Positions 9,614 to 48,586 of a stretch of DNA of 64,000 nt are shown here, piece by piece; position 1 is the stretch's first letter; every line of letters begins with the position of its first letter. A program made the position numbers and the translations under genes. The stretch spans positions 62,001 to 126,000 of the forward strand of contig JADJYM010000016.1 in the NCBI GenBank assembly GCA_016719755.1. The letters are read 5' to 3'. This DNA is from Novosphingobium sp. (lineage in GTDB: Bacteria > Pseudomonadota > Alphaproteobacteria > Sphingomonadales > Sphingomonadaceae). The notes beneath the pieces were generated by a model that was not told where the DNA came from, did not search any database, and worked only from the letters and a program-made list of their open reading frames with translations.

Positions 9614-10822
9614 GTGAAATCGCTTCCCGCCATAGACCGTTACATTTTCCGGCTCGTGCTGATGCCGATGCTGGCCGTGTTCCTGATCGCCGCCTCGCTG
9701 CTTGTGCTCGACAAGATGCTCAAGCTGTTCGATTTCGTGGCGACCGAGGGCGGCCCGGTGTCGATCGTGTTCCGGATGCTGGCCAACCTGCTGCCCGAAT
9801 ATGCCAGCCTGGCGATCCCGCTTGGGCTGATGCTGGGCATCCTGTTCGCATTCCGCAAGCTTGCCACCTCCAGTGAACTTGACGTGATGCGCGCGGTGGG
9901 GCTCAGCTATAACCGGCTGCTGCGCGTGCCCTACATGATCACGCTGGCGCTGGCCGCGCTCAACCTGGTGATCGTCGGCTATCTCCAGCCGCTGTCGCGC
10001 TATTATTACGAGCAATTGCAGTTCGAGCTGCGCTCCGGCGCGCTCGGCGCCTCGATCAAGGTGGGCGAGTTCACCACGCTCAAGGACAAGATGGCGCTGC
10101 GCATCGAGCAGAGCGAGGAGGATGGGCGGCGCCTGCTGGGGATCTTCGCCCGGGTCAATTCGGCGCGCGGGCAGATGCTGACCATTTCGGCGCGCGAGGG
10201 CCGGTTCCTGGCGCTGAAGGACCAGCCGGACACGATCATCCTGCGCCTGACCGACGGCCAGATCATCCAGGACCAGCCGGGTCAGACGCCCCGGGTGCTG
10301 AGCTTTTCCAGCCATGACCTGCCGATCGACCTCCCCGCGATCGAGAAGTTCCGCCAGCGCGGCGACAAGAACGCCGAATACCTGCTGCCCGAACTGCTGA
10401 GAGTGGGCTGGAGCGATCAGGTCAGTCAGGAAGTGCGCAACCAGACCCGCGCCAGCCTGAACTATCGCCTGGTCGAAGTGGTGATGATGCTGTTGCTGCC
10501 GCTGCTGGCCGTGGCGCTGGCGATTCCGCCCAAGCGCTCGACCTCGCCGCTGGGCGTGTTCGTCTCGATCGTGCTGGTGGTGGCCTATCACAAGGTCAAC
10601 GAATACGGCCAGGCGGTGGCCGCGCTGGGCCGGGTTTCGCCCGCACTGGCGCTTTGGGGGCCGTTCGTGGTGTTTGCCGCCCTGATCATCTGGATGTACT
10701 GGCGCGTCGCCTTTGTCCCCGGCGGGCAGGCAATCGGCGCGCTGGAACGCGTTGCCACGGGTCTGGGCAAGCGGCTGCGCAGCCTGATGGCCCGCCGCAA
10801 GGCGCGTAGCGGAGCCGTGTGA
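9614..10822 (+). CDS. lptF: LPS export ABC transporter permease LptF
   Basis: 402 residues with the LptF/LptG (YjgP/YjgQ) layout: TM helices at ~10-30, 55-80 and 95-125, a periplasmic beta-jellyroll from ~130 to 265, then three TM helices at ~280-370. LDVMRAVGLSYNRLLRVP is the cytoplasmic coupling helix that contacts LptB. It forms the inner-membrane LptB2FG complex, which extracts lipopolysaccharide towards LptC/LptA. A GTG start (9614-9616) is used. The stop codon overlaps the start of lptG (TGATG), indicating translational coupling. Confidence 0.93.
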   Translation: MKSLPAIDRYIFRLVLMPMLAVFLIAASLLVLDKMLKLFDFVATEGGPVSIVFRMLANLLPEYASLAIPLGLMLGILFAFRKLATSSELDVMRAVGLSYNRLLRVPYMITLALAALNLVIVGYLQPLSRYYYEQLQFELRSGALGASIKVGEFTTLKDKMALRIEQSEEDGRRLLGIFARVNSARGQMLTISAREGRFLALKDQPDTIILRLTDGQIIQDQPGQTPRVLSFSSHDLPIDLPAIEKFRQRGDKNAEYLLPELLRVGWSDQVSQEVRNQTRASLNYRLVEVVMMLLLPLLAVALAIPPKRSTSPLGVFVSIVLVVAYHKVNEYGQAVAALGRVSPALALWGPFVVFAALIIWMYWRVAFVPGGQAIGALERVATGLGKRLRSLMARRKARSGAV

Positions 10823-25382: not shown

Positions 25383-27032
25383 TCAACCGCCTGCGAACTT
25401 TCGCTGCCCGGCAAGCACGGTCATCCGCTTGGCTCCGGCCAGCGCCGTGCCTTTTTCCCGCACCGTGGCGAGGAAGCGCCACTCGCCGGTCGCGGCCTGC
25501 GGGGTCAGTTCCACCGCCAGATAGCCGCGCTGCGCGGTGTCGCACCATTTGAGCTGCGGGTTGCGCGCGACCACCTCTGCCGCCAGGGTATCCGGACGCT
25601 GCCAGCGGATCGTGTCTTCCGCCCCGGGCGAGGTCACCGAATGGCCGGCCATTTCCACCCCCACCCGCCTGCCCTTGCGCTCAAGATCGGATGCCCAGGC
25701 GTTGTGGCTGTCTCCGGCCAGGACCAGCAGGTTGGCCCGGGCCTCCAGCGCCGCCTTGTAAAGCCGGTCGCGCGCCGCCGGATAACCATCCCACGCATCC
25801 ATGTTCCATGGCAGCCCGACCCTCGACGCGGTGACCGCATCCCGGATCCGCTGCTTCAGCCAGTCAGGCGAAGTGGCCGCCATGCCTTCGGCCAGGCTCT
25901 GCGGCATGGCGATCGAGCCCATCACGATCTGCTGGACCAGCACCTGCCACGGCTTGTTCGATCTGGCTGAGGCCCTGAGCCCGCCGGCCAGCCAGGCCTC
26001 CTGCTCCGCGCCCAACAGCCCGCGCGACGGATCGCGCCACTTGCCGTCCCGAAACGCCTTCAGCGCGGCTTCGGCCTCGTCCGGAGTCTTGCTCTTGACT
26101 ACATCGACCAGTTCGAAGGGTTCGCTGCGGGCGACGTGCCGGGTCTCCAGCCGGAACAGGGTGGCAAGCTCTCCGACCTCGTACTTCGCCCAGTAATCGT
26201 CCGACACCGGGAGCCATGCGCGGTAGGCCTTTTCCGACGCGGCCTTGCGCACCGCCCAATCGCCCTCGGTGCCGTTCTGGTGGTTCTCGGCGCCGTTCTG
26301 CCACGTGTCGTTGGCGGTCTCGTGATCGTCCCAGACGGAGATCATCGGGTAGAGCTGGTGGAGCCGCTGAAGGTCCGGATCGGCGCGGTAGGTGGCAAGG
26401 CGTTCGCGGTATCCGGCCAGGGTCACCGCCTCGTCCAGCGGCCCTGATCGTCCGCCAACCGTCTGTTTTACGGATGGATATTCGCCGCGCTTGTACTCGT
26501 AGAAGTAGTCGCCAAGGTGCAGCGCAAGGTCGAAATCGCCCGCCTCGGCGGCATGGGCATAGGCGTTGAACCAGCCGAAGCCATAGTTGGAGCAGGAAAA
26601 CACCGCGATCCGGAAGTGCGGCACCTTGCCCACCGGCAGGGTCCGCGTCCGCCCGGTCACCGACCGCTCCCCCGATGGCGCGATGAAGCGGTAATAGTAC
26701 CAGCGCCCCGGCGCGAGGCCCCGCGCCCAGGCCTTGGCGCAGCAGTCGCTGGCGGGGGAGGCAAGCGCATCGCCCTCCGTCATGATGCGGGAAAAGGCTT
26801 CATCCTCAGCCACTTCCCACTTGAGCACAACCTCCTGCGCGGCAGCAAAGCGGGTCCACAGCAGGACCTGCTCCGCCCCCGGCTCTCCGCTCGCCACGCC
26901 GTGGGTGAAGCCTCCACCGGTCCCGGCCTTGCCCGGCGCGGACAGCCCGGCCAGCCCGAGCAGGCCCAGCTTCAGCGCGCTCCTCCGGTCGGCATGAGCA
27001 ATCGGTGCGGGCGCGGGCGGCGGCAGGTGCAT
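25383..27032 (-). CDS. PhoD-family alkaline phosphatase/phosphodiesterase, Tat-exported
   Basis: 549 residues from ATG at 27030-27032, with GGGAGAGAG just upstream. The N-terminus has a twin-arginine signal (ADRRSALKLGLLGLAGLSA). The Fn3-like PhoD N domain follows (FTHGVASGEPGAEQVLLWTRF), then the metallophosphatase core: AVFSCSNYGFGWFNAYAHAAE, LHLGDYFYEYKRG, ISVWDDHETANDTWQNGAENH and LVLAGDSHNAWASDLE. The Fe/Ca-binding Asp, Asn and His residues are intact. It releases phosphate from mono- and diesters in the periplasm, normally under phosphate starvation. No Pho box was identified upstream. Confidence 0.9.
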   Translation of the reverse strand: MHLPPPAPAPIAHADRRSALKLGLLGLAGLSAPGKAGTGGGFTHGVASGEPGAEQVLLWTRFAAAQEVVLKWEVAEDEAFSRIMTEGDALASPASDCCAKAWARGLAPGRWYYYRFIAPSGERSVTGRTRTLPVGKVPHFRIAVFSCSNYGFGWFNAYAHAAEAGDFDLALHLGDYFYEYKRGEYPSVKQTVGGRSGPLDEAVTLAGYRERLATYRADPDLQRLHQLYPMISVWDDHETANDTWQNGAENHQNGTEGDWAVRKAASEKAYRAWLPVSDDYWAKYEVGELATLFRLETRHVARSEPFELVDVVKSKTPDEAEAALKAFRDGKWRDPSRGLLGAEQEAWLAGGLRASARSNKPWQVLVQQIVMGSIAMPQSLAEGMAATSPDWLKQRIRDAVTASRVGLPWNMDAWDGYPAARDRLYKAALEARANLLVLAGDSHNAWASDLERKGRRVGVEMAGHSVTSPGAEDTIRWQRPDTLAAEVVARNPQLKWCDTAQRGYLAVELTPQAATGEWRFLATVREKGTALAGAKRMTVLAGQRKFAGG

Positions 27033-40545: not shown

Positions 40546-40690
40546 CCCGGAGCCTCTCCTCCGGACAGACGGAAAACTAGAAGGACAGCGCTAAGGAAAT
40601 CATAGCGCCAGACCTAGGGACTTCACTGCCCCGGATGGCCGCTCCGCTGCCTGAGCAGCGATCAAAGGCAAACGCCTAGGATTTGGAAAA

Positions 40691-40710
40691 TGGAGCGGTG
40701 AAGGGAACCG
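40691..40710. repeat. Left attachment-site-like repeat (imperfect copy of tRNA-Gly 3' end)
   Basis: TGGAGCGGTGAAGGGAACCG differs from the tRNA copy at 48513-48533 by one missing G and one T-to-C change. The preceding bases (GGAAAA versus GGAAAT) are also similar. The imperfection argues for an old insertion that has diverged, or for use of a secondary site. Confidence 0.6.
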
Positions 40711-41014: not shown

Positions 41015-44000
41015 GTGAACGATCCGACCCTCTTCGCTGCTGGCGCGCTTTTCACCCAGGACTACCTTTCCGAAGGCATTGCCGCCACGGCGGCCTATGC
41101 CGCGATTGATCCCCAGCCCTTGCGCGAGCGGCTGGATGCGATCCTGGCCGGTTTCCCTCACGCCAGCCGCCCGAATGAAGCGACCACGGAAAGCGATCTT
41201 GTCTGGCCGGTCCTCTCGCTGCTCGGCTGGAGCGATTACCTTACCCAGCAAAACCTCTCGGCTTCCGGGCGGGTCGACGTTCCCGATGGCCTGCTGTTCA
41301 TCGACGCGGGGGCAAAGGCCCAGGCGAACGCGCACCCCGAAGAATGGAAGCGCTACGAATTCGGCGCGGCGATTGTCGAAAGCAAGCGCTGGGGCCGCGC
41401 GCTGGACCGTGCCGAGGGGCGCAAAGGCGAAGAGCGCGACACGCCTTCGACCCAGCTCCTGCGCTACCTGCGGCGGATCGACGACCTGACCAGTGGCGCG
41501 CTGCGCTGGGGCATCCTGACCAATGGGGCGCGCTGGCGGCTCTACTTTTCGGGCGCCCGCTCGACCATCGACGATTACCTGGAAATCGACCTTGCGCGGG
41601 TGCTGGGGCTCGATCCGGACCTGCTCGACAGCGGCGTTACCCCAGCCGAACGCGATCACTGGCTGCGTGTCTTTGCCGCCATGTTCTCACGCTCCGCGTT
41701 CGAACGTGCGGCGCCCGGCGCACCCAGCTTCCACGATACCGCTCGCAGCGAAGCGGCCTTCTATGAGGAACGGGTCGCCAAAAGCCTGTCCGAACTGGTC
41801 TTCACCAAGCTCTACCCCATGCTTGGCAAGGCGGTCGCCAAGGCCGCGCCAGCCGATACCCCGCTGGACGAAATCCGCCAGGCAACCCTGATACTGCTCT
41901 ACCGCCTGCTGTTCGTGCTCTATGCCGAAGACCGCGGCCTGCTCCCGGTGCGCGACCCGCGCTTCGATGATTATGCGCTGCGCGTCGCGCGGCTGGACAT
42001 TGGCCGGCGCAAGGATGCCGGGGACGCCTTCTCCGGCGTCGCCAAACATATCTGGAGCCGCTTCGCCAGCCTTGCCGAAATGATCGATCAGGGCGATCCA
42101 TCGGTAGGCCTGCCCCCTTACAACGGCGGCCTGTTCAGCGGCGAGCAGACCCCGCTGCTCAAGTCGATCGCGCTGGGCGACGATGTCATGGCCGAAGCGC
42201 TCGACATCCTGTCATGGGAGCAGCGCGGCGGTCGGCGGCGTTATATCAACTACCGCGACCTTTCGGTGCAGCAACTCGGCTCGATCTATGAGCGCTTGCT
42301 GGAGTTCGAACTGGCCCGCGACGAAACCGGCGCGGTCGATGTCCGGCCCAATATCTTCGCCCGCAAGAATTCCGGCAGCTACTACACGCCGGATGACCTT
42401 GTGTTGCTGATTCTGGACGAAACGCTGGAACCGCTGATCAGCGACGCGCACGAAGGCTTTGACAGGGCAATGGCCAGCCTCAAGCCTTCGGACAGCGAAG
42501 ACTACAAGCTGACCCAGCTGCAAAAGGCGGACCCCGCGAAAGCGATCACCCGTCTGCGCGTCTGCGATCCGGCGATGGGCTCTGGCCACTTTCTGGTTTC
42601 GCTGGTCGACCGGCTGACCAATCACGCGCTGGATGCCATGGCCGAGGCTGCGGCGCTGGTGCAGGACAACCTGGGGCTGGAATACGAAAGCCCCGTCGCC
42701 GCCGAAGTGCGCGAGGTGCGCGGCACGATCCGCCACAACGCCCAGGATCAGAACTGGACTGTGGCCGAAGAGCAGCTGGACGATCCCCAGCTGGTCAAGC
42801 GCATGGTGCTGAAACGCTGCGTCTATGGCGCGGACAAGAACCGCATGGCGGTGGAACTGGCCAAGGTTTCGCTCTGGCTGCACACTTTCACGGTAGGGGC
42901 GCCGCTATCCTTCATCGATCACCACCTGGCCTGCGGGGACAGCCTGTTCGGCCTGTGGGTGCGCGATGCGATCGACAAGGCGGGCGCGGGCGGCGAACTG
43001 CTGTATATCGAGGAACTGCGCACGGCGGAGCGCCAGGCGGCAACCATGCAGCGGATCGAGGCGCTGACCGATGCCGAGATTGCCGAGGCCCATTCCAGCG
43101 CCGAAATGTGGCGCGATGTCGAATTTCAGGTCGGCCCGTTCGACAGCTTCGTCAGCTTCATCCATGCGCTGGACTGGCTGGACCTGCCCCGCGCCCAGCG
43201 CCCGCTGATTACCCAATGGCTCGACGGCGGGTTTGGCGATCCCCTGCCGATCGCGCGCGGCAAGAAGGAACCCGAAGCCTACCGCGCTAAACCCGAAGAG
43301 GCCGAAGCCTTCCGCGCCATCTGGCAGGCCGCGCGCGAACTGATCGAGGAGGAACGCTTCCTCAACTGGCAGATCACCTTCCCCGGCGTGTGGAAGAACT
43401 GGGCCAGCCGCGAACTGGAAGGTGGCTTCGATGCGGTCATCGGCAACCCGCCGTGGGACCGGATCAAGCTGCAACAGGTCGAATGGTTCGCCGCGCGCAG
43501 GCCGGAAATCGCCATGGCGCAGCGCGCGTCCGATCGCGGCAAGATGATCAAGGCGCTGGAAAAGGCGGGCGATCCCCTGTTCGCGGACTATGCCAAGGCC
43601 GACCGCCGCGCTGCCGATACCATGCGCATCGCGCGCAAGGGCGGGCATTATCCCCTGCTCAGCCGGGGCGACATCAACCTCTACAGCCTGTTCGTGGAAC
43701 GCGCCTACCGGCTGGTGAAGCCGGGCGGCATGGTTGGCCTGCTCACCCCCAGCGGCATCGCCAGCGACCTTTCCGCCAGCGCGTTCTTCCGCAAGGTGGC
43801 GACCGGCGGCCACCTCAAGGCCCTGTATGATTTCGAGAACAAGAAGGTGTTCTTCCCGGACGTCCACGCCAGCTTCAAGTTTGCGGTGATGGTGGCGAGT
43901 CCGGAGCGCACTTTCACGGCGGCGCGGTGCGCCTTCTACCTGCACGGTGTGGGTGAACTTCACAACCCCGACCAGTGCTTCCCGATTGCCGCTGCTGACT

Positions 44001-45112
44001 TCGCTCGTGTCAATCCCAACACCGGCACCGCGCCGATTTTCCGCACCGCCCGCGACATGGCGCTCACCACCGCGATCTATGCTCGCTGCCCGGTGCTGGT
44101 CGACCGCTCGGGCGACGAGCCGGTGGCGGCATGGCCGGTCAAGTATGCCACCATGTTTCACATGACCAACAACAGCCACCTTTTCCGCACCCGCGCGGAA
44201 CTGGAAGGCAAGGAAGGCGCCTGGCCCATTGGCGGCAACCGCTGGCAATCCCCAAGCGGGGAATGGGTGCCGCTTTATGTTGGCCGGATGATCCATCAAT
44301 TCGATCACCGCGCTGCCTCCGTCACGGTCAACGAAGAAAACCTGCACAATGCGGCCTTGAGCGGCGAAATTACCGCAGCAATGAAGGCTGACCCAACCTT
44401 TACTCCGGAACCCCAGTTTTGGGTTCCTCGGTCTGAATGCAAGGCGAACGCTGATGGCAGTGCCACTTTGGCGTTTCGCGATATTGCAAGAGCAACCGAT
44501 TCTAGAACATTCATCGCAGCGATTTGCCCGTCATACGGCTTTGGCAACAAGGCACCTTTGATTCTTGGTAGGGAGCGCGGACTGTACGCAGATGAAACGA
44601 CGCTTCTTGCGTCTAACTGCAATGCAGTTGTGTTCGATTATGTGACGCGATCGAAGCTGCAAAGCACCAGTCTCAACTGGTTCATCGTCGAACAACTCCC
44701 GGTGATCCCGCCCGAAGCCTACTCCCGCGCCTTCGGCCCCAAGACCGCCGCCGAAATCGTCCGCGAATCCGTGCTGGAACTGACCTATACCGCCCACGAC
44801 ATGGCCCCCTTCGCCCGGGACATGGGATATGTCGACGAGACCGGGGAAGTGCGACCGCCCTACGTCTGGGACGAGGACCGCCGCCTGGCACTGCGCGCCC
44901 GGCTCGATGCGCTCTATTTCATCCTCTACGGCGTGTTCGATCCCGCCAGCCCCGAACAGTCGCGCGATGATGTCCGCTACATCTATTCCACCTTCCCGAT
45001 CGTCGAGCGCGAGGAACTGGCCCGCTGGGGCCGCTACCGCAGCCGCGACCTCTGCCTCGCCTGGATCAACGCCCTGATCGCCGGCCAGCCGGACGCGGCT
45101 GTGGAGGGATAG
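41015..45112 (+). CDS. Type IIG-like restriction-modification fusion: N-terminal PD-(D/E)XK nuclease and gamma-class N6-adenine methyltransferase
   Basis: 1,365 residues from GTG at 41015. The N-terminal ~180 residues look like a PD-(D/E)XK nuclease: E59, D88/D91 in RVDVPDG and E122-S-K124 in AAIVESKRWG. A helical region follows, then methyltransferase motif I DPAMGSGHF at 518-526 and motif IV NPPWD at 811-815, with the large insertion between them seen in Eco57I-type enzymes. The C-terminal third should hold the target-recognition domain. One chain may thus cut and methylate DNA; PglX-like BREX methylases are an alternative, but no other BREX gene is present. Residues ~1125-1225 are encoded by a low-GC patch. 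It is followed after three bases by the next gene. Confidence 0.8.
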   Translation: MNDPTLFAAGALFTQDYLSEGIAATAAYAAIDPQPLRERLDAILAGFPHASRPNEATTESDLVWPVLSLLGWSDYLTQQNLSASGRVDVPDGLLFIDAGAKAQANAHPEEWKRYEFGAAIVESKRWGRALDRAEGRKGEERDTPSTQLLRYLRRIDDLTSGALRWGILTNGARWRLYFSGARSTIDDYLEIDLARVLGLDPDLLDSGVTPAERDHWLRVFAAMFSRSAFERAAPGAPSFHDTARSEAAFYEERVAKSLSELVFTKLYPMLGKAVAKAAPADTPLDEIRQATLILLYRLLFVLYAEDRGLLPVRDPRFDDYALRVARLDIGRRKDAGDAFSGVAKHIWSRFASLAEMIDQGDPSVGLPPYNGGLFSGEQTPLLKSIALGDDVMAEALDILSWEQRGGRRRYINYRDLSVQQLGSIYERLLEFELARDETGAVDVRPNIFARKNSGSYYTPDDLVLLILDETLEPLISDAHEGFDRAMASLKPSDSEDYKLTQLQKADPAKAITRLRVCDPAMGSGHFLVSLVDRLTNHALDAMAEAAALVQDNLGLEYESPVAAEVREVRGTIRHNAQDQNWTVAEEQLDDPQLVKRMVLKRCVYGADKNRMAVELAKVSLWLHTFTVGAPLSFIDHHLACGDSLFGLWVRDAIDKAGAGGELLYIEELRTAERQAATMQRIEALTDAEIAEAHSSAEMWRDVEFQVGPFDSFVSFIHALDWLDLPRAQRPLITQWLDGGFGDPLPIARGKKEPEAYRAKPEEAEAFRAIWQAARELIEEERFLNWQITFPGVWKNWASRELEGGFDAVIGNPPWDRIKLQQVEWFAARRPEIAMAQRASDRGKMIKALEKAGDPLFADYAKADRRAADTMRIARKGGHYPLLSRGDINLYSLFVERAYRLVKPGGMVGLLTPSGIASDLSASAFFRKVATGGHLKALYDFENKKVFFPDVHASFKFAVMVASPERTFTAARCAFYLHGVGELHNPDQCFPIAAADFARVNPNTGTAPIFRTARDMALTTAIYARCPVLVDRSGDEPVAAWPVKYATMFHMTNNSHLFRTRAELEGKEGAWPIGGNRWQSPSGEWVPLYVGRMIHQFDHRAASVTVNEENLHNAALSGEITAAMKADPTFTPEPQFWVPRSECKANADGSATLAFRDIARATDSRTFIAAICPSYGFGNKAPLILGRERGLYADETTLLASNCNAVVFDYVTRSKLQSTSLNWFIVEQLPVIPPEAYSRAFGPKTAAEIVRESVLELTYTAHDMAPFARDMGYVDETGEVRPPYVWDEDRRLALRARLDALYFILYGVFDPASPEQSRDDVRYIYSTFPIVEREELARWGRYRSRDLCLAWINALIAGQPDAAVEG

Positions 45113-45115
45113 GCT

Positions 45116-45613
45116 ATGGAAGGCCGGACCTTTGCCCTGCCCCCCGCCATCGCCGCAATGGTGCAGGCCCGCAATGCAGTGCGCGATCATTACCACCGCG
45201 TCCTGCGCGAACTGGGCAGCGAAGTGGACCTGGGCTTTACGCTGGACGGCAATCTGATTGGCGACATTGGCGAGGCGCTGGCCGCCGAACTGTTCGGCAT
45301 CCGGCTGGTCGAAACCCGCTCGACCGAAGGGATCGACGGCTATGCCCGCGACGGAAGAACCGTGCAGGTGAAAGCCACCGGCACCGGACGCGGCCCCGCA
45401 TTCCGCTGCACTGAGACCCGCGCCGATCACCTGCTGTTCTTCGACCTGGACCTTGAGCGCGGATGCGGGTTCATCGCCTTCAACGGGCCGGAACACTACG
45501 CGACCAGCAATTTGCCGAATGAGTTCCGCAATCAACGCATGGTGAGCCGCGCGCAAATCCGGGCCGCCGATTTGCTGGTAAAGGACGAAGAGCGGCTGGC
45601 AAGGCTGGCTTGA
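45116..45613 (+). CDS. Small PD-(D/E)XK-like protein (DUF6998-type), partner of the methyltransferase
   Basis: 165 residues, beginning three bases after the stop of the methyltransferase fusion, so the two are almost certainly co-translated. The centre reads GNLIGDIGEALAAELFGIRLV...EGIDGYARDGRTVQVKATG, giving E53, D74 and Q84-V-K86. This is the acidic-acidic-QxK layout of PD-(D/E)XK enzymes. C-terminal strands (DHLLFFDLDLERGCGFIAFNGP) complete a compact fold. The family resembles DUF6998, which has no established role as far as I know. It could be a nuclease, a nicking partner or a DNA-recognition accessory. Confidence 0.65.
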   Translation: MEGRTFALPPAIAAMVQARNAVRDHYHRVLRELGSEVDLGFTLDGNLIGDIGEALAAELFGIRLVETRSTEGIDGYARDGRTVQVKATGTGRGPAFRCTETRADHLLFFDLDLERGCGFIAFNGPEHYATSNLPNEFRNQRMVSRAQIRAADLLVKDEERLARLA

Positions 45614-45995: not shown

Positions 45996-46196
45996 TCAGG
46001 CAGCCTCCCCTTCGATCAGGGCGCGCAGGCTGCGGGCGGTGATGATGGTGCGCTTGCCGAACTTGCGCGCCTCCAGCCGACCCTCGCTGATCAGCTGATA
46101 TATGTAGGTGCGGCCAAAGGTGCTGACCCGGCACGCTTCGCTGACCGAATAGGCCAGCGGGGCAAGGGCATCGGCAGAAAATGCTTCCGAGTTCAT
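45996..46196 (-). CDS. AlpA/excisionase-type helix-turn-helix protein
   Basis: 66 residues from ATG at 46194-46196, with GGGAGG 5-10 bases upstream; a longer in-frame reading lacks an RBS. The sequence YSVSEACRVSTFGRTYIYQLISEGRLEARKFGKRTIITARSLRALI is the MerR-like winged helix of AlpA/Xis proteins. In integrative elements such proteins activate integrase or act as recombination directionality factors. It lies between the cargo operon and the integrase on the integrase strand, where an excision regulator is expected. Confidence 0.82.
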   Translation of the reverse strand: MNSEAFSADALAPLAYSVSEACRVSTFGRTYIYQLISEGRLEARKFGKRTIITARSLRALIEGEAA

Positions 46197-46278
46197 GTTG
46201 CCTCCCGGTTCCGCCCGAACTGTGGCGGCAGTGGACGGAGGCGCTTTTAGCTTGGTAGCGGCCTTTCGGCTTTCGCAG

Positions 46279-46959
46279 TTAATCTCGTTTATTTTTGACG
46301 GAGTTTTTCGCGATGCCGTTGAGGGCAACTTTGATGCCCCAGGCGATCCTGCGCTGCTGGGTTTCGAGCGCCCTTCCGGTCAAAGCATTGCTGGTAAGGC
46401 TTGCTGCGATTGCCGTGACGGGGCGAGTATCTCCGCCTTCGATCATGCGTAGTGCGAGCTGGACCTGTTCCCTTTCCCAATCATTGGATGGGCCTTTTGG
46501 GCGACCGGCACGCTTTTTGGGTTTGCCTGCCAACTGGCTCAAGAGATGGTCGGCTTCCTTGCGCGGAATTCGGGTCGCATGGAAGCTGGTCTGCAATTGC
46601 TCAAAGTTCGTCAGTTCCCATTCGATGGCTTCAACCGCCCCAGACACCCAGTCAATCGAGATCCAGACATCGGGTTCTTCGGGATCATCTTGCCAGAAAG
46701 ACGTTAGATCACCCCGGGGGTCCCCCGAATCTCTCCAGATGGATAGGGGCACCGGTTGAGGATGTATGTCGCGTGGAAGACGTTCTACCTTCCCCGTGTC
46801 GTTGAATGTGAACTGCCTGCGATAGCCACGCGCAACCAGTCCGCTCCGCAATGCTGCAAGCAGCGCTTCGGTAGCTGCGAGTTCATCGATGCCTTGCTGC
46901 GCGACAGCTTCAAATATCTCGCCAAAGTATGCCCATTTCGCGCGATCATTGATGCTCAT
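46279..46959 (-). CDS. Hypothetical island protein
   Basis: 226 residues, not recognised. The N-terminal half is acidic and rich in Trp (WRDSGDPRGDLTSFWQDDPEEPDVWISIDWVSGAVEAIEWELTNF). The middle has a basic linker (GKPKKRAGRPKG, an AT-hook-like RGRP variant). The C-terminal ~65 residues are helical (DWEREQVQLALRMIEGGDTRPVTAIAASL...RRIAWGIKVALNGIAKN) and could form a helix-turn-helix. A DNA-binding role is possible but speculative. The base composition is visibly less GC-rich than in the flanking host genes. It sits between the AlpA-like and integrase genes on the same strand. Confidence 0.6.
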   Translation of the reverse strand: MSINDRAKWAYFGEIFEAVAQQGIDELAATEALLAALRSGLVARGYRRQFTFNDTGKVERLPRDIHPQPVPLSIWRDSGDPRGDLTSFWQDDPEEPDVWISIDWVSGAVEAIEWELTNFEQLQTSFHATRIPRKEADHLLSQLAGKPKKRAGRPKGPSNDWEREQVQLALRMIEGGDTRPVTAIAASLTSNALTGRALETQQRRIAWGIKVALNGIAKNSVKNKRD

Positions 46960-47066: not shown

Positions 47067-48299
47067 TCAGCGCGTTTGCTGGCTACGAAGAGGAACAACG
47101 TCAGCCCCCTTCCGAAGTTGGTCCAAGTGGTCCGACCACCATTGCGCCATTTCGACGCGCTCCTGCCAATGCGCGCCGCGATGATAGGCTGCGCGAACCT
47201 TGTCAGTGTCGCCATGAGCCAGCGCCCGTTCGATCGCATCCGGGTGCCACTTTCCACTTTCGTTGAGCAGTGTGGAAGCCATCGCGCGGAAGCCGTGGGC
47301 GGTCATTTCGTCGGTCGAATAGCCCAGCCGCCGCAGTGCGCCGTTGATCGTGTTCTCGCTCATCGGACGGGAACGGGAGCGGATCGAAGGAAAGACGTAA
47401 CCAGCCGGACCTGTGACAGACTGCACCTCCCGGAATAGTTCGACCGTTTGCGTCGATAGGGGGACATGGTGCGCCTTGCGCATTTTCATTTTTCCGGCGG
47501 GTATCACCCACAAGGCGGCGTCAAAGTCGAATTCGCTCCACTCCGCGTGGCGAAGTTCGCCGGGTCGCACAAAAACGTGCGGTGCGATTTGAAGGGCAAG
47601 CTTGGTAATGCCGCTGCCTTCGTAATCGTCGATCGCGCGGAGCAGCTGGCCGACCTTCCTCGCGTCGGTGATGGCGCCGTAGTGGGTAACGGTTGGTGCA
47701 GTCAGCGCGCCGCGCAAATCACGGGTAGGGTCCGATCCCAGCCGCGCGGTCGCCACGGCATAGCGGAACACGGCACCTGCGAGTTGCAGGCTGCGCCGCG
47801 CGCTTTCCAGCTTACCCTTGCCCTCAATCCGGCGAATGGCTGTCAGCACGTCCGCCGGTTCGATCTCGCCAATGGGCAGCTTGCCGATGGACCCGCAAAC
47901 CAGAGACAAGAGATACTCGCTGCGCGTGGCGGTTGCGGGTGCCCAGCCCTTCGTGCCGTCGCGCCGCCGCTTCTGGCAATACTCGTCGCAAATTGCCTTG
48001 AACGTATCCGCCGCCTGTATGCGGGCGCGCAGCTTTTCGCGCTGCTTTTCGCGGGAAGGGTCTTTGCCAAGCGCGATCAGTTCCCGCGCTTCCTCGCGCC
48101 GCCTGCGCGCCTCGCCAAGTCCGATTTCGGGATAGGCCCCGATAGCCAGCAGCTTCTCGCGTCCATCGATCCGATACTTCAGCCGCCAGAGCTTACCCCC
48201 GGCTGGCGTCACCAACAGGAACATACCGCCCCCGTCCGCCAGCTTGATTGCCTTGGCGCCGGGCTTGGCGTTCCGGATTCCTACGTCTGTCAGGGCCAT
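47067..48299 (-). CDS. Tyrosine-type site-specific integrase (P4-like, DUF4102 arm domain)
   Basis: 410 residues from ATG at 48297-48299 (MALTDVGIRNAKPG). The N-terminal DUF4102 arm-binding domain is typical: KAIKLADGGGMFLLVTPAGGKLWRLKYRIDGREKLLAIGAYPEIGLGEARRRREEARELIALGKDP. The catalytic domain has the first Arg in VRPGELRHAEW, HGFRAMA for HxxR, and the nucleophile Tyr in RAAYHRG. P4-type integrases insert elements at tRNA 3' ends, in agreement with the tRNA-Gly 214 bases away. The ATACCCCC motif cluster covers the region just upstream of its start, so the integrase may autoregulate. Confidence 0.95.
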   Translation of the reverse strand: MALTDVGIRNAKPGAKAIKLADGGGMFLLVTPAGGKLWRLKYRIDGREKLLAIGAYPEIGLGEARRRREEARELIALGKDPSREKQREKLRARIQAADTFKAICDEYCQKRRRDGTKGWAPATATRSEYLLSLVCGSIGKLPIGEIEPADVLTAIRRIEGKGKLESARRSLQLAGAVFRYAVATARLGSDPTRDLRGALTAPTVTHYGAITDARKVGQLLRAIDDYEGSGITKLALQIAPHVFVRPGELRHAEWSEFDFDAALWVIPAGKMKMRKAHHVPLSTQTVELFREVQSVTGPAGYVFPSIRSRSRPMSENTINGALRRLGYSTDEMTAHGFRAMASTLLNESGKWHPDAIERALAHGDTDKVRAAYHRGAHWQERVEMAQWWSDHLDQLRKGADVVPLRSQQTR

Positions 48300-48325
48300 A
48301 GCGTTTTCCAGCCTCTCCGGGGCTC

Positions 48326-48400
48326 GCACCCCCAATATACCCCCAAGCGTGGGGGTATCGAGTTGGCCGTTTTGCATATACCCCCCAATCATACCCCCGC
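48326..48400. repeat. Right-end ATACCCCC motif cluster (candidate integrase arm sites)
   Basis: Copies include GCACCCCCAA (from 48326), TATACCCCCAA (48336-48346), an inverted TGGGGGTATCG (48350-48360, the reverse complement of CGATACCCCCA), CATATACCCCCCAA (48375-48388) and CATACCCCCGC (48390-48400). GATACCCCCA is shared exactly with the left end. The placement between the integrase start and the tRNA fits arm-type sites of a P4-like integrase. Confidence 0.6.
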
Positions 48401-48512
48401 CGACTGGGGGCTGAGTGCGAACGCGGGTGAACGCTTGCGGCCTGATAGCCGCTAAATACCTTGGATTTCTGGGGCCTGTCTAGACGAATGCGAACATTGG
48501 TGGACAGGAAAT

Positions 48513-48586
48513 TGGAGCGGGTGAAGGGAATCGAACCCTCGTCGTAAGCTTGGGAAGCTTCTGCTCTACCATTGAGCTACACCCGC
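48513..48586 (-). tRNA. tRNA-Gly (anticodon UCC)
   Basis: Reading the reverse strand, the gene begins GCGGGTGTAGCTC and ends with the acceptor CACCCGC, discriminator T and an encoded CCA. The D arm has GCTC/GAGC, and the anticodon loop CTTCCCA gives UCC. The T arm is AGGGTTCGATTCCCT. All seven acceptor pairs match. The genomic island ends at its 3' terminus, leaving the tRNA intact. Confidence 0.96.

Follow-up and report, generated by a model that had tools for sequence, protein, structure and literature searches.

A Type IIG-like restriction-modification gene directly followed by a DUF6998 nuclease-like gene in a tRNA-Gly island of Novosphingobium sp.

Introduction

Type IIG and Type IIL restriction enzymes, a class including Eco57I, MmeI, and DrdV, and DISARM systems, in which the drmA, drmB, and helicase genes lie beside a methylase gene, are among the described systems closest to the locus analyzed in this work. 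In Type IIG enzymes, a single site directs both cleavage and N6-adenine methylation. Also relevant is the BisI family of nucleases (Eco15I and NhoI), whose characteristics are a methyl-cytosine pocket with an (H/R)(V/I/T/M) motif and cleavage that depends on modification. A further relevant group are the auxiliary effectors of PrrC/PrrI, BREX, and Dnd systems, i.e., varied nucleases or toxins placed beside a modification or restriction core (PMC3506569, PMC3710099, PMC10853773, PMC12839542). For the BisI-family nuclease Eco15I, the published account reports that altering E49, D69, Q79, or K81 abolished activity (PMC11347163). In this study, a pair of adjoining genes identified within a 64,000-nucleotide stretch of Novosphingobium sp. 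DNA (hereafter, the window) was subjected to comparative analysis with related loci, which are referred to by L numbers.

Results

General Features of the Gene Pair and Its Island

Both open reading frames of the pair (Table 1) are intact and tightly coupled, at the same coordinates as in the first-pass annotation, which had described a two-gene unit at 41015-45613; only 3 nt separate the stop codon of the large gene from the start codon of the small one. The ATG of the small gene is directly preceded by GGAGGG, a ribosome-binding-like stretch located within the last codons of the large gene, and such a junction suggests that both proteins are probably produced from one message by translational coupling. 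In the scan for promoters and terminators, the number of matches was not above that in shuffled sequences. The dN/dS values for the window compared with L043, L044, and L046 were 0.48, 0.18, and 0.09 for the small gene and 0.28, 0.25, and 0.16 for the large gene, with synonymous changes being close to saturation in the comparisons with L046.

Table 1. Features of the locus in the window, and genes found directly after the large gene in related loci.
Feature	Position or locus	Strand	Basis or remark
Type IIG-like restriction-modification protein, 1365 aa, GTG start	41015..45112	+	Eco57I-type profile, motifs
DUF6998 protein, 165 aa, ATG start, predicted PD-(D/E)XK nuclease, BisI-family-like	45116..45613	+	profile, model
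Excisionase-like helix-turn-helix protein	45996..46328	-	HTH_17 30.4 bits, Pfam cut-off 27
226-aa island protein	46279..46959	-	without family above chance level
Tyrosine integrase of the island	47067..48392	-	profile match
tRNA-Gly(ccc), presumed integration target	48513..48586	-	tRNA call
att-like repeat overlapping the tRNA 3' end	48507..48533	.
att-like repeat, imperfect copy at the far end of the island	40685..40710	.
Downstream gene: GIY-YIG, PADLOC phage-defence candidate PDC-S14	L193, L195, L154		L193 and L154 scanned
Downstream gene: PLD	L197, L166, L171		Pfam matches below cut-off
Downstream gene: SIR2, then HerA	L172
Downstream gene: HATPase with sub-threshold PD-(D/E)XK match (ATPase-nuclease)	L167
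Downstream gene: HEPN with TPR	L149
Downstream gene: YafQ-type toxin	L201
Downstream gene: unclassified possible ExK nuclease	L170		named by eye; Pfam match sub-threshold

An integrative island of about 7.8 kb, located at a tRNA-Gly gene, carries the pair as its recognisable cargo, and the earlier proposal of such an island is supported by the tRNA gene, the tyrosine integrase, and the att-like repeats. Six other genomes (L245, L247, L251, L253, L256, and L263) carry relatives of the integrase, 71-87% identical to it, close to tRNA-Gly. The excisionase-like protein, the listed start of whose gene is possibly too long, matched a second profile at 27 bits, slightly below its cut-off of 28.8, and the 226-aa protein had no match in Pfam, PADLOC, or NCBIfam and two matches at chance level in PHROGs. 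When positions 48501-48540 were used as a query, the left att-like copy scored higher (40) than any site in the window apart from the query itself (next 30), and when the whole 120-nt tRNA stretch was used, a long gapped match at 26750 scored 49 versus 40 for the left copy; 6 of 1984 random windows scored above 40. In a search for empty sites with the right flank, the tRNA was matched in most relatives, and no locus with both chromosomal flanks was found. It is also worth mentioning that the large gene contains a perfect 17-nt inverted repeat (42220-42236 and 43598-43614), which may be a matter of chance in GC-rich DNA.

The Large Protein

The large protein comprises an N-terminal PD-(D/E)XK nuclease, an N6-adenine methylase, and a variable C-terminal part presumed to be responsible for target recognition. 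An Eco57I-type fusion with an N-terminal nuclease, as predicted earlier, is supported by the Pfam match to Eco57I (82 bits; the MmeI models stayed below the cut-off), by the methylase motifs DPAMGSGH (518-525) and NPPWD (811-815), by the E122-x-K124 motif, and by the structural matches of the predicted model. The N-terminal 300 residues were modelled with a pLDDT of 87, and the Foldseek search with this model returned an HsdR fragment in the first place (probability 1.00, E 0.015, the best E-value obtained), followed by DrdV (probability up to 0.87).

In a 30-row alignment, E55, E122, and K124 were invariant, and E59, D88, P90, and D91 were conserved in at least 90% of rows. Given this conservation pattern, D91 is likelier than D88 to be the residue of the PD motif, so that the first-pass reading stands for the methylase motifs and E122-x-K124 and probably needs correction for D88. 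Among the 43 long proteins aligned (the window included, some of them near-copies), methylase motif I was present in all, and NPPW was kept except in L154, L201-L205, and L233-L235, which carry NPPY. The nuclease motif was kept wherever the N-terminus was recovered, with or without a partner gene, the exceptions being L153 (E59 and PD part absent) and L196 (D88 absent); the N-terminus is missing in L150 and partly missing in L172.

The C-terminal part (residues 960-1365) was less alike than residues 1-820 in most of the close pairs compared, e.g., L197 and L228 share 98.0% identity in the latter region and 54.0% in the former. Little contrast between the two regions was observed for the pairs L192/L224, L193/L195, and L167/L168, and L202/L203 were identical. 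In the Pfam search, no named target-recognition domain was found in the C-terminal part. The PDB sequence search with the large protein gave one weak, unrelated match, as did that with its N-terminal profile, and there was no match to the protein at E 1e-20 in the annotated phage collection.

Judged by sequence and model, nuclease and methylase are combined in one chain, as in Type IIG enzymes. Because of the motif conservation, the match of the N-terminal model, and the variability of the C-terminus, the large protein looks complete on its own as a putative Type IIG-like enzyme.

With respect to PADLOC, the best model for the large protein was DrmMI (243 bits), ahead of REase_MTase_IIG (199 bits). 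Membership in DISARM was rejected, since PADLOC recognised no partner genes among the five genes of the island; so was membership in BREX, for which the PglX models scored 22-32 bits versus cut-offs of 400-900 and no partner was found among the same five genes. No PADLOC model names the pair; a known named system would have spoken against the first-pass reading.

Near-identical 1404-aa relatives with the same flanks (L202, L203, L204, L234, and L235) were found in different genera of one family, which suggests recent transfer.

The Small Protein

The small protein belongs to DUF6998 (PF22522; 101 bits in Pfam, cut-off 27). In PADLOC, it gave weak matches only (best 19 bits), and the annotated phage collection contained no match to it at E 1e-5. 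Within the alignment of 48 small proteins, E53, D74, V83, and K86 were invariant and Q84 was conserved in at least 90%, which confirms the E53/D74/QVK86 motif noticed earlier. When the 48-row profile was compared with the PDB, the single match below E 0.1 was Eco15I (E 4.4e-4), with E53/D74/Q84/K86 falling on E44/D64/Q74/K76 of the Eco15I chain; given the numbering offset of 5, these correspond to E49/D69/Q79/K81.

The predicted model (pLDDT 93.5, pTM 0.88) contains a nuclease core, as had been expected for this protein, and the ten top Foldseek matches were all chains of Eco15I or NhoI, followed by PvuII. Identities of these matches were 13-22%, with TM-scores of 0.31-0.47, a large rmsd, and a best E-value of 2.5e-3. 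Given the modest TM-scores and the absence of any match below E 0.001, the similarity of the overall fold is regarded as moderate, and the correspondence of the active sites is the stronger argument. Sequence and model thus agree on a PD-(D/E)XK core with QxK catalytic residues as in the BisI family. The literature search yielded nothing on DUF6998 in the journals covered, subscription journals being covered incompletely.

Co-Occurrence of the Two Genes

Within the flanks fetched (up to 6 kb), the large protein is encoded at only four of the 73 species-genome loci of the small protein (L043-L046) and was not found at the other 69; in 17 of the 73, the small-protein match was weak or interrupted, with fewer than 100 residues aligned in one piece, and four (L052, L091, L097, and L100) had less than 1 kb of upstream sequence. 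It was likewise absent from all seven viral loci of the small protein and from within about 1.5 kb of the further DUF6998 genes (L002-L027 and L029-L039). The first-pass annotation had proposed a conserved second nuclease-like subunit and had set beforehand, as a check speaking against it, that homologs of the small protein be rarely adjacent to methylases; this is largely what was observed, and the description as a conserved subunit does not hold. Methylase-like genes were noticed near four of the remaining 69 loci, i.e., L062 (51 nt upstream), L073 (next gene, other strand), L067, and L110, with five genes flagged among 800 called, in a rough motif screen on script-made gene calls that would miss many. 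Records examined for plasmid matches numbered 3 of 7 for the small protein and 7 of 137 for the large one.

In L043-L046, the large gene lies directly upstream of the small one, the gap being 3 nt in L043-L045, as in the window, and 5 nt in L046. The pair is kept in the latter, more distant locus, at 66% and 72% identity, and this could point to a genuine partnership that is uncommon. Viewed from the large gene, the small one follows in four of 41 distinct loci (the window, L043, L044, and L046); in an earlier set of 30 large-protein loci, several of which are partial pieces of the large gene, it was found in the fetched stretch solely at the window's own locus (L116). Two relatives of the large protein with 76% identity, L192 and L224, are without the small gene. 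A tree of the large protein, built from 41 rows by a quick method, grouped the window, L043, L044, and L045 (support 98) and placed L046 weakly (69), and in the small-protein tree (53 rows) the same four were grouped (95), with L046 as the nearest neighbour at weak support (65). In view of these groupings, both an early origin of the pair within this branch, followed by losses in L192 and L224, and two separate origins are conceivable.

DUF6998 genes were also observed in other surroundings. In several sphingomonads (L081, L083, L084, and L086), they lie beside methylmalonyl-CoA mutase- and/or carboxylase-like genes (named by eye). A second DUF6998-like gene in the window's own genome (C15; L164:9822-10298), with a weak family score of 27.3 bits, directly follows a parE-like gene (also named by eye). 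Lone, moron-like DUF6998 genes on the strand opposite to their neighbours occur in the viral contigs L266-L268 and L270. In a further viral region, L271:4983-10407, DUF6998 is accompanied by a recombinase-like gene and one of 1023 aa; about 4 kb downstream of DUF6998 lies a methylase-like gene with a DPPF motif, cut by the locus end (neighbours named by eye).

The Position Directly after the Large Gene

A gene was counted as occupying the position behind the large gene when it was on the same strand, at most 60 nt away or overlapping, and of a defence, toxin, or possible nuclease kind. This position was filled in 15 of the 41 distinct loci (window included), by DUF6998 in four and by other kinds in 11 (Table 1), and 26 loci had no such gene; the 41 are best matches and not a random sample, and the counts are raw, with any clustering in defence islands included. 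These 41 loci were obtained from 48 aligned proteins by removing seven, namely L203, L204, and L233-L235 (near-copies of L202), L208 (the same locus as L232), and L045 (a sister of L044). Outside the count are L155-L160 (distant relatives, mostly in multi-gene loci), the contig fragments L161-L163, and those loci from the set of 30 whose fetched stretch stayed unextended.

Genes of the fetched loci were called by a simple script, so gaps are approximate except in annotated records; annotated plasmid records confirmed the gaps for L166 (6 nt), L167 (4-nt overlap), L171 (3 nt), and L172 (4-nt overlap). The proteins encoded in this position in L167, L149, and L170 had no PADLOC match at E 0.01. 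Some of the 26 loci carry another same-strand gene there, such as the response regulator gene of L225, and an effector-type gene is located farther off in L198, L202, and L228.

Direct comparisons of relatives showed where their differences begin. The plasmid loci L167 and L168 share a 5060-nt block of 97.5% identity that ends at position 10064, adjoining the stop codon of the large gene (codon end 10068); beyond it, L167 carries the ATPase gene and L168 an RES/Xre pair and another gene, before identity resumes downstream (94%). Further differences between these two loci lie on the upstream side of the block. For L195 and L194, the sequences correspond as far as the end of the large gene, where the GIY-YIG gene is present in L195 only. 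In the pair L197/L228, the former carries PLD and the latter a GmrSD-Schlafen protein as the second gene.

Discussion

We hold with moderate confidence that the locus encodes a Type IIG enzyme that is complete in itself and is followed by a position for exchangeable add-ons, occupied here by a BisI-like nuclease presumed to cooperate with it. The C-terminal part of the large protein would read the target, at which the methylase would mark an adenine in host DNA, and the N-terminal nuclease would cut unmarked incoming DNA. The small protein would then be an autonomous BisI-like PD-(D/E)XK nuclease forming an add-on second layer rather than an obligatory subunit. Its substrate may be DNA that escapes the first enzyme, possibly phage DNA carrying modifications, in the manner of BisI enzymes. 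Within this enzyme family, the position after the large gene would serve as an exchangeable slot, a proposal that combines observed differences between relatives with a supposed cooperation. The second gene looks exchangeable, and not like a fixed subunit, because relatives can hold other defence-type genes in the same place. The first-pass interpretation as a whole was therefore partly supported.

That interpretation had pictured a two-subunit restriction enzyme with the small nuclease as a required part, a model to which we attach very little probability: the tight coupling and the retention of the pair in four of 73 loci, one of them (L046) more distant, fit it, and against it stand the large protein's own nuclease motif, the 76%-identity relatives without the small gene, and the fact that the small protein mostly occurs without the large one. 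The retained motif also led to rejection of the idea that the fusion is inactive and that the small gene supplies the nuclease it lacks. It would also be conceivable that the large enzyme keeps an add-on effector inactive and frees it once restriction is overcome, as in PrrC/PrrI. Toxin-type genes in the slots of relatives (HEPN, SIR2 with HerA, and YafQ) and the theme described in PMC3506569 and PMC3710099 speak for such guarding; however, homologs of the small protein mostly live without the large enzyme and 26 of the 41 loci lack an effector-type gene in the slot, and we consider this explanation improbable.

More weight, though still short of likely, is given to the two genes being neighbours by chance, i.e., a wandering nuclease gene, similar to a moron or a homing endonuclease, that landed behind a methylase gene in an ancestor and acquired no joint function, the varied neighbours reflecting ordinary island turnover. 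The lone viral DUF6998 genes between oppositely oriented genes, the DUF6998 genes beside metabolic genes or after the parE-like gene, the 69 small-protein loci without the large gene, and the many large-gene loci without a slot effector are in line with this. As the slot holds no effector-type gene in those 26 loci, other genes can occupy it, and PADLOC recognised none of the three slot proteins mentioned above, ordinary island turnover could therefore be at work. Chance alone, however, agrees poorly with gaps of 3 nt in the window and L043-L045 and of 5 nt in L046, with the ribosome-binding-like stretch inside the upstream gene and the dN/dS of 0.18 against L044, and with differences between relatives that begin at the methylase stop (L167/L168 and L195/L194).

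A broader generalisation from the complete enzyme with an add-on nuclease is offered tentatively and is itself doubtful: a one-gene Type IIG family would swap unrelated effectors after its stop codon and so form a minimal modular system, and DUF6998 would be a new BisI-like, possibly modification-dependent family. If this were true, DUF6998 would gain a testable activity, and a pairing with exchangeable backup effectors would extend from large BREX or Dnd operons to restriction systems of the simplest kind. Backup effectors next to a restriction or BREX/Dnd core are as such already described in print, and the variant here is one Type IIG-like gene with a variable downstream position. Among the titles and abstracts searched, with subscription journals covered incompletely, nothing was found on a slot of this enzyme family or on effector swapping.

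Comparison with Known Systems

Like Type IIG/IIL enzymes, the large protein combines a nuclease, an N6 methylase, and a variable C-terminal part in a single chain; unlike them, the large gene here is followed by a separate nuclease gene. The small protein resembles the BisI family (Eco15I and NhoI) in that its E/D/QxK catalytic residues align with theirs, its top structural matches belong to this family, and its 165 aa are near the size of the 173-aa catalytic domain given for Eco15I. It differs in adjoining an adenine methylase and in the low identities and modest TM-scores given above; the likeness concerns the core and the catalytic residues, and a dependence on modification may possibly be shared. 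Likeness to DISARM consists in DrmMI being the best PADLOC model for the large protein, whereas no DISARM partner is recognisable in the island. Finally, in contrast to the PrrC/PrrI, BREX, and Dnd systems, the core of the locus described here is one Type IIG-like gene with one variable downstream position.
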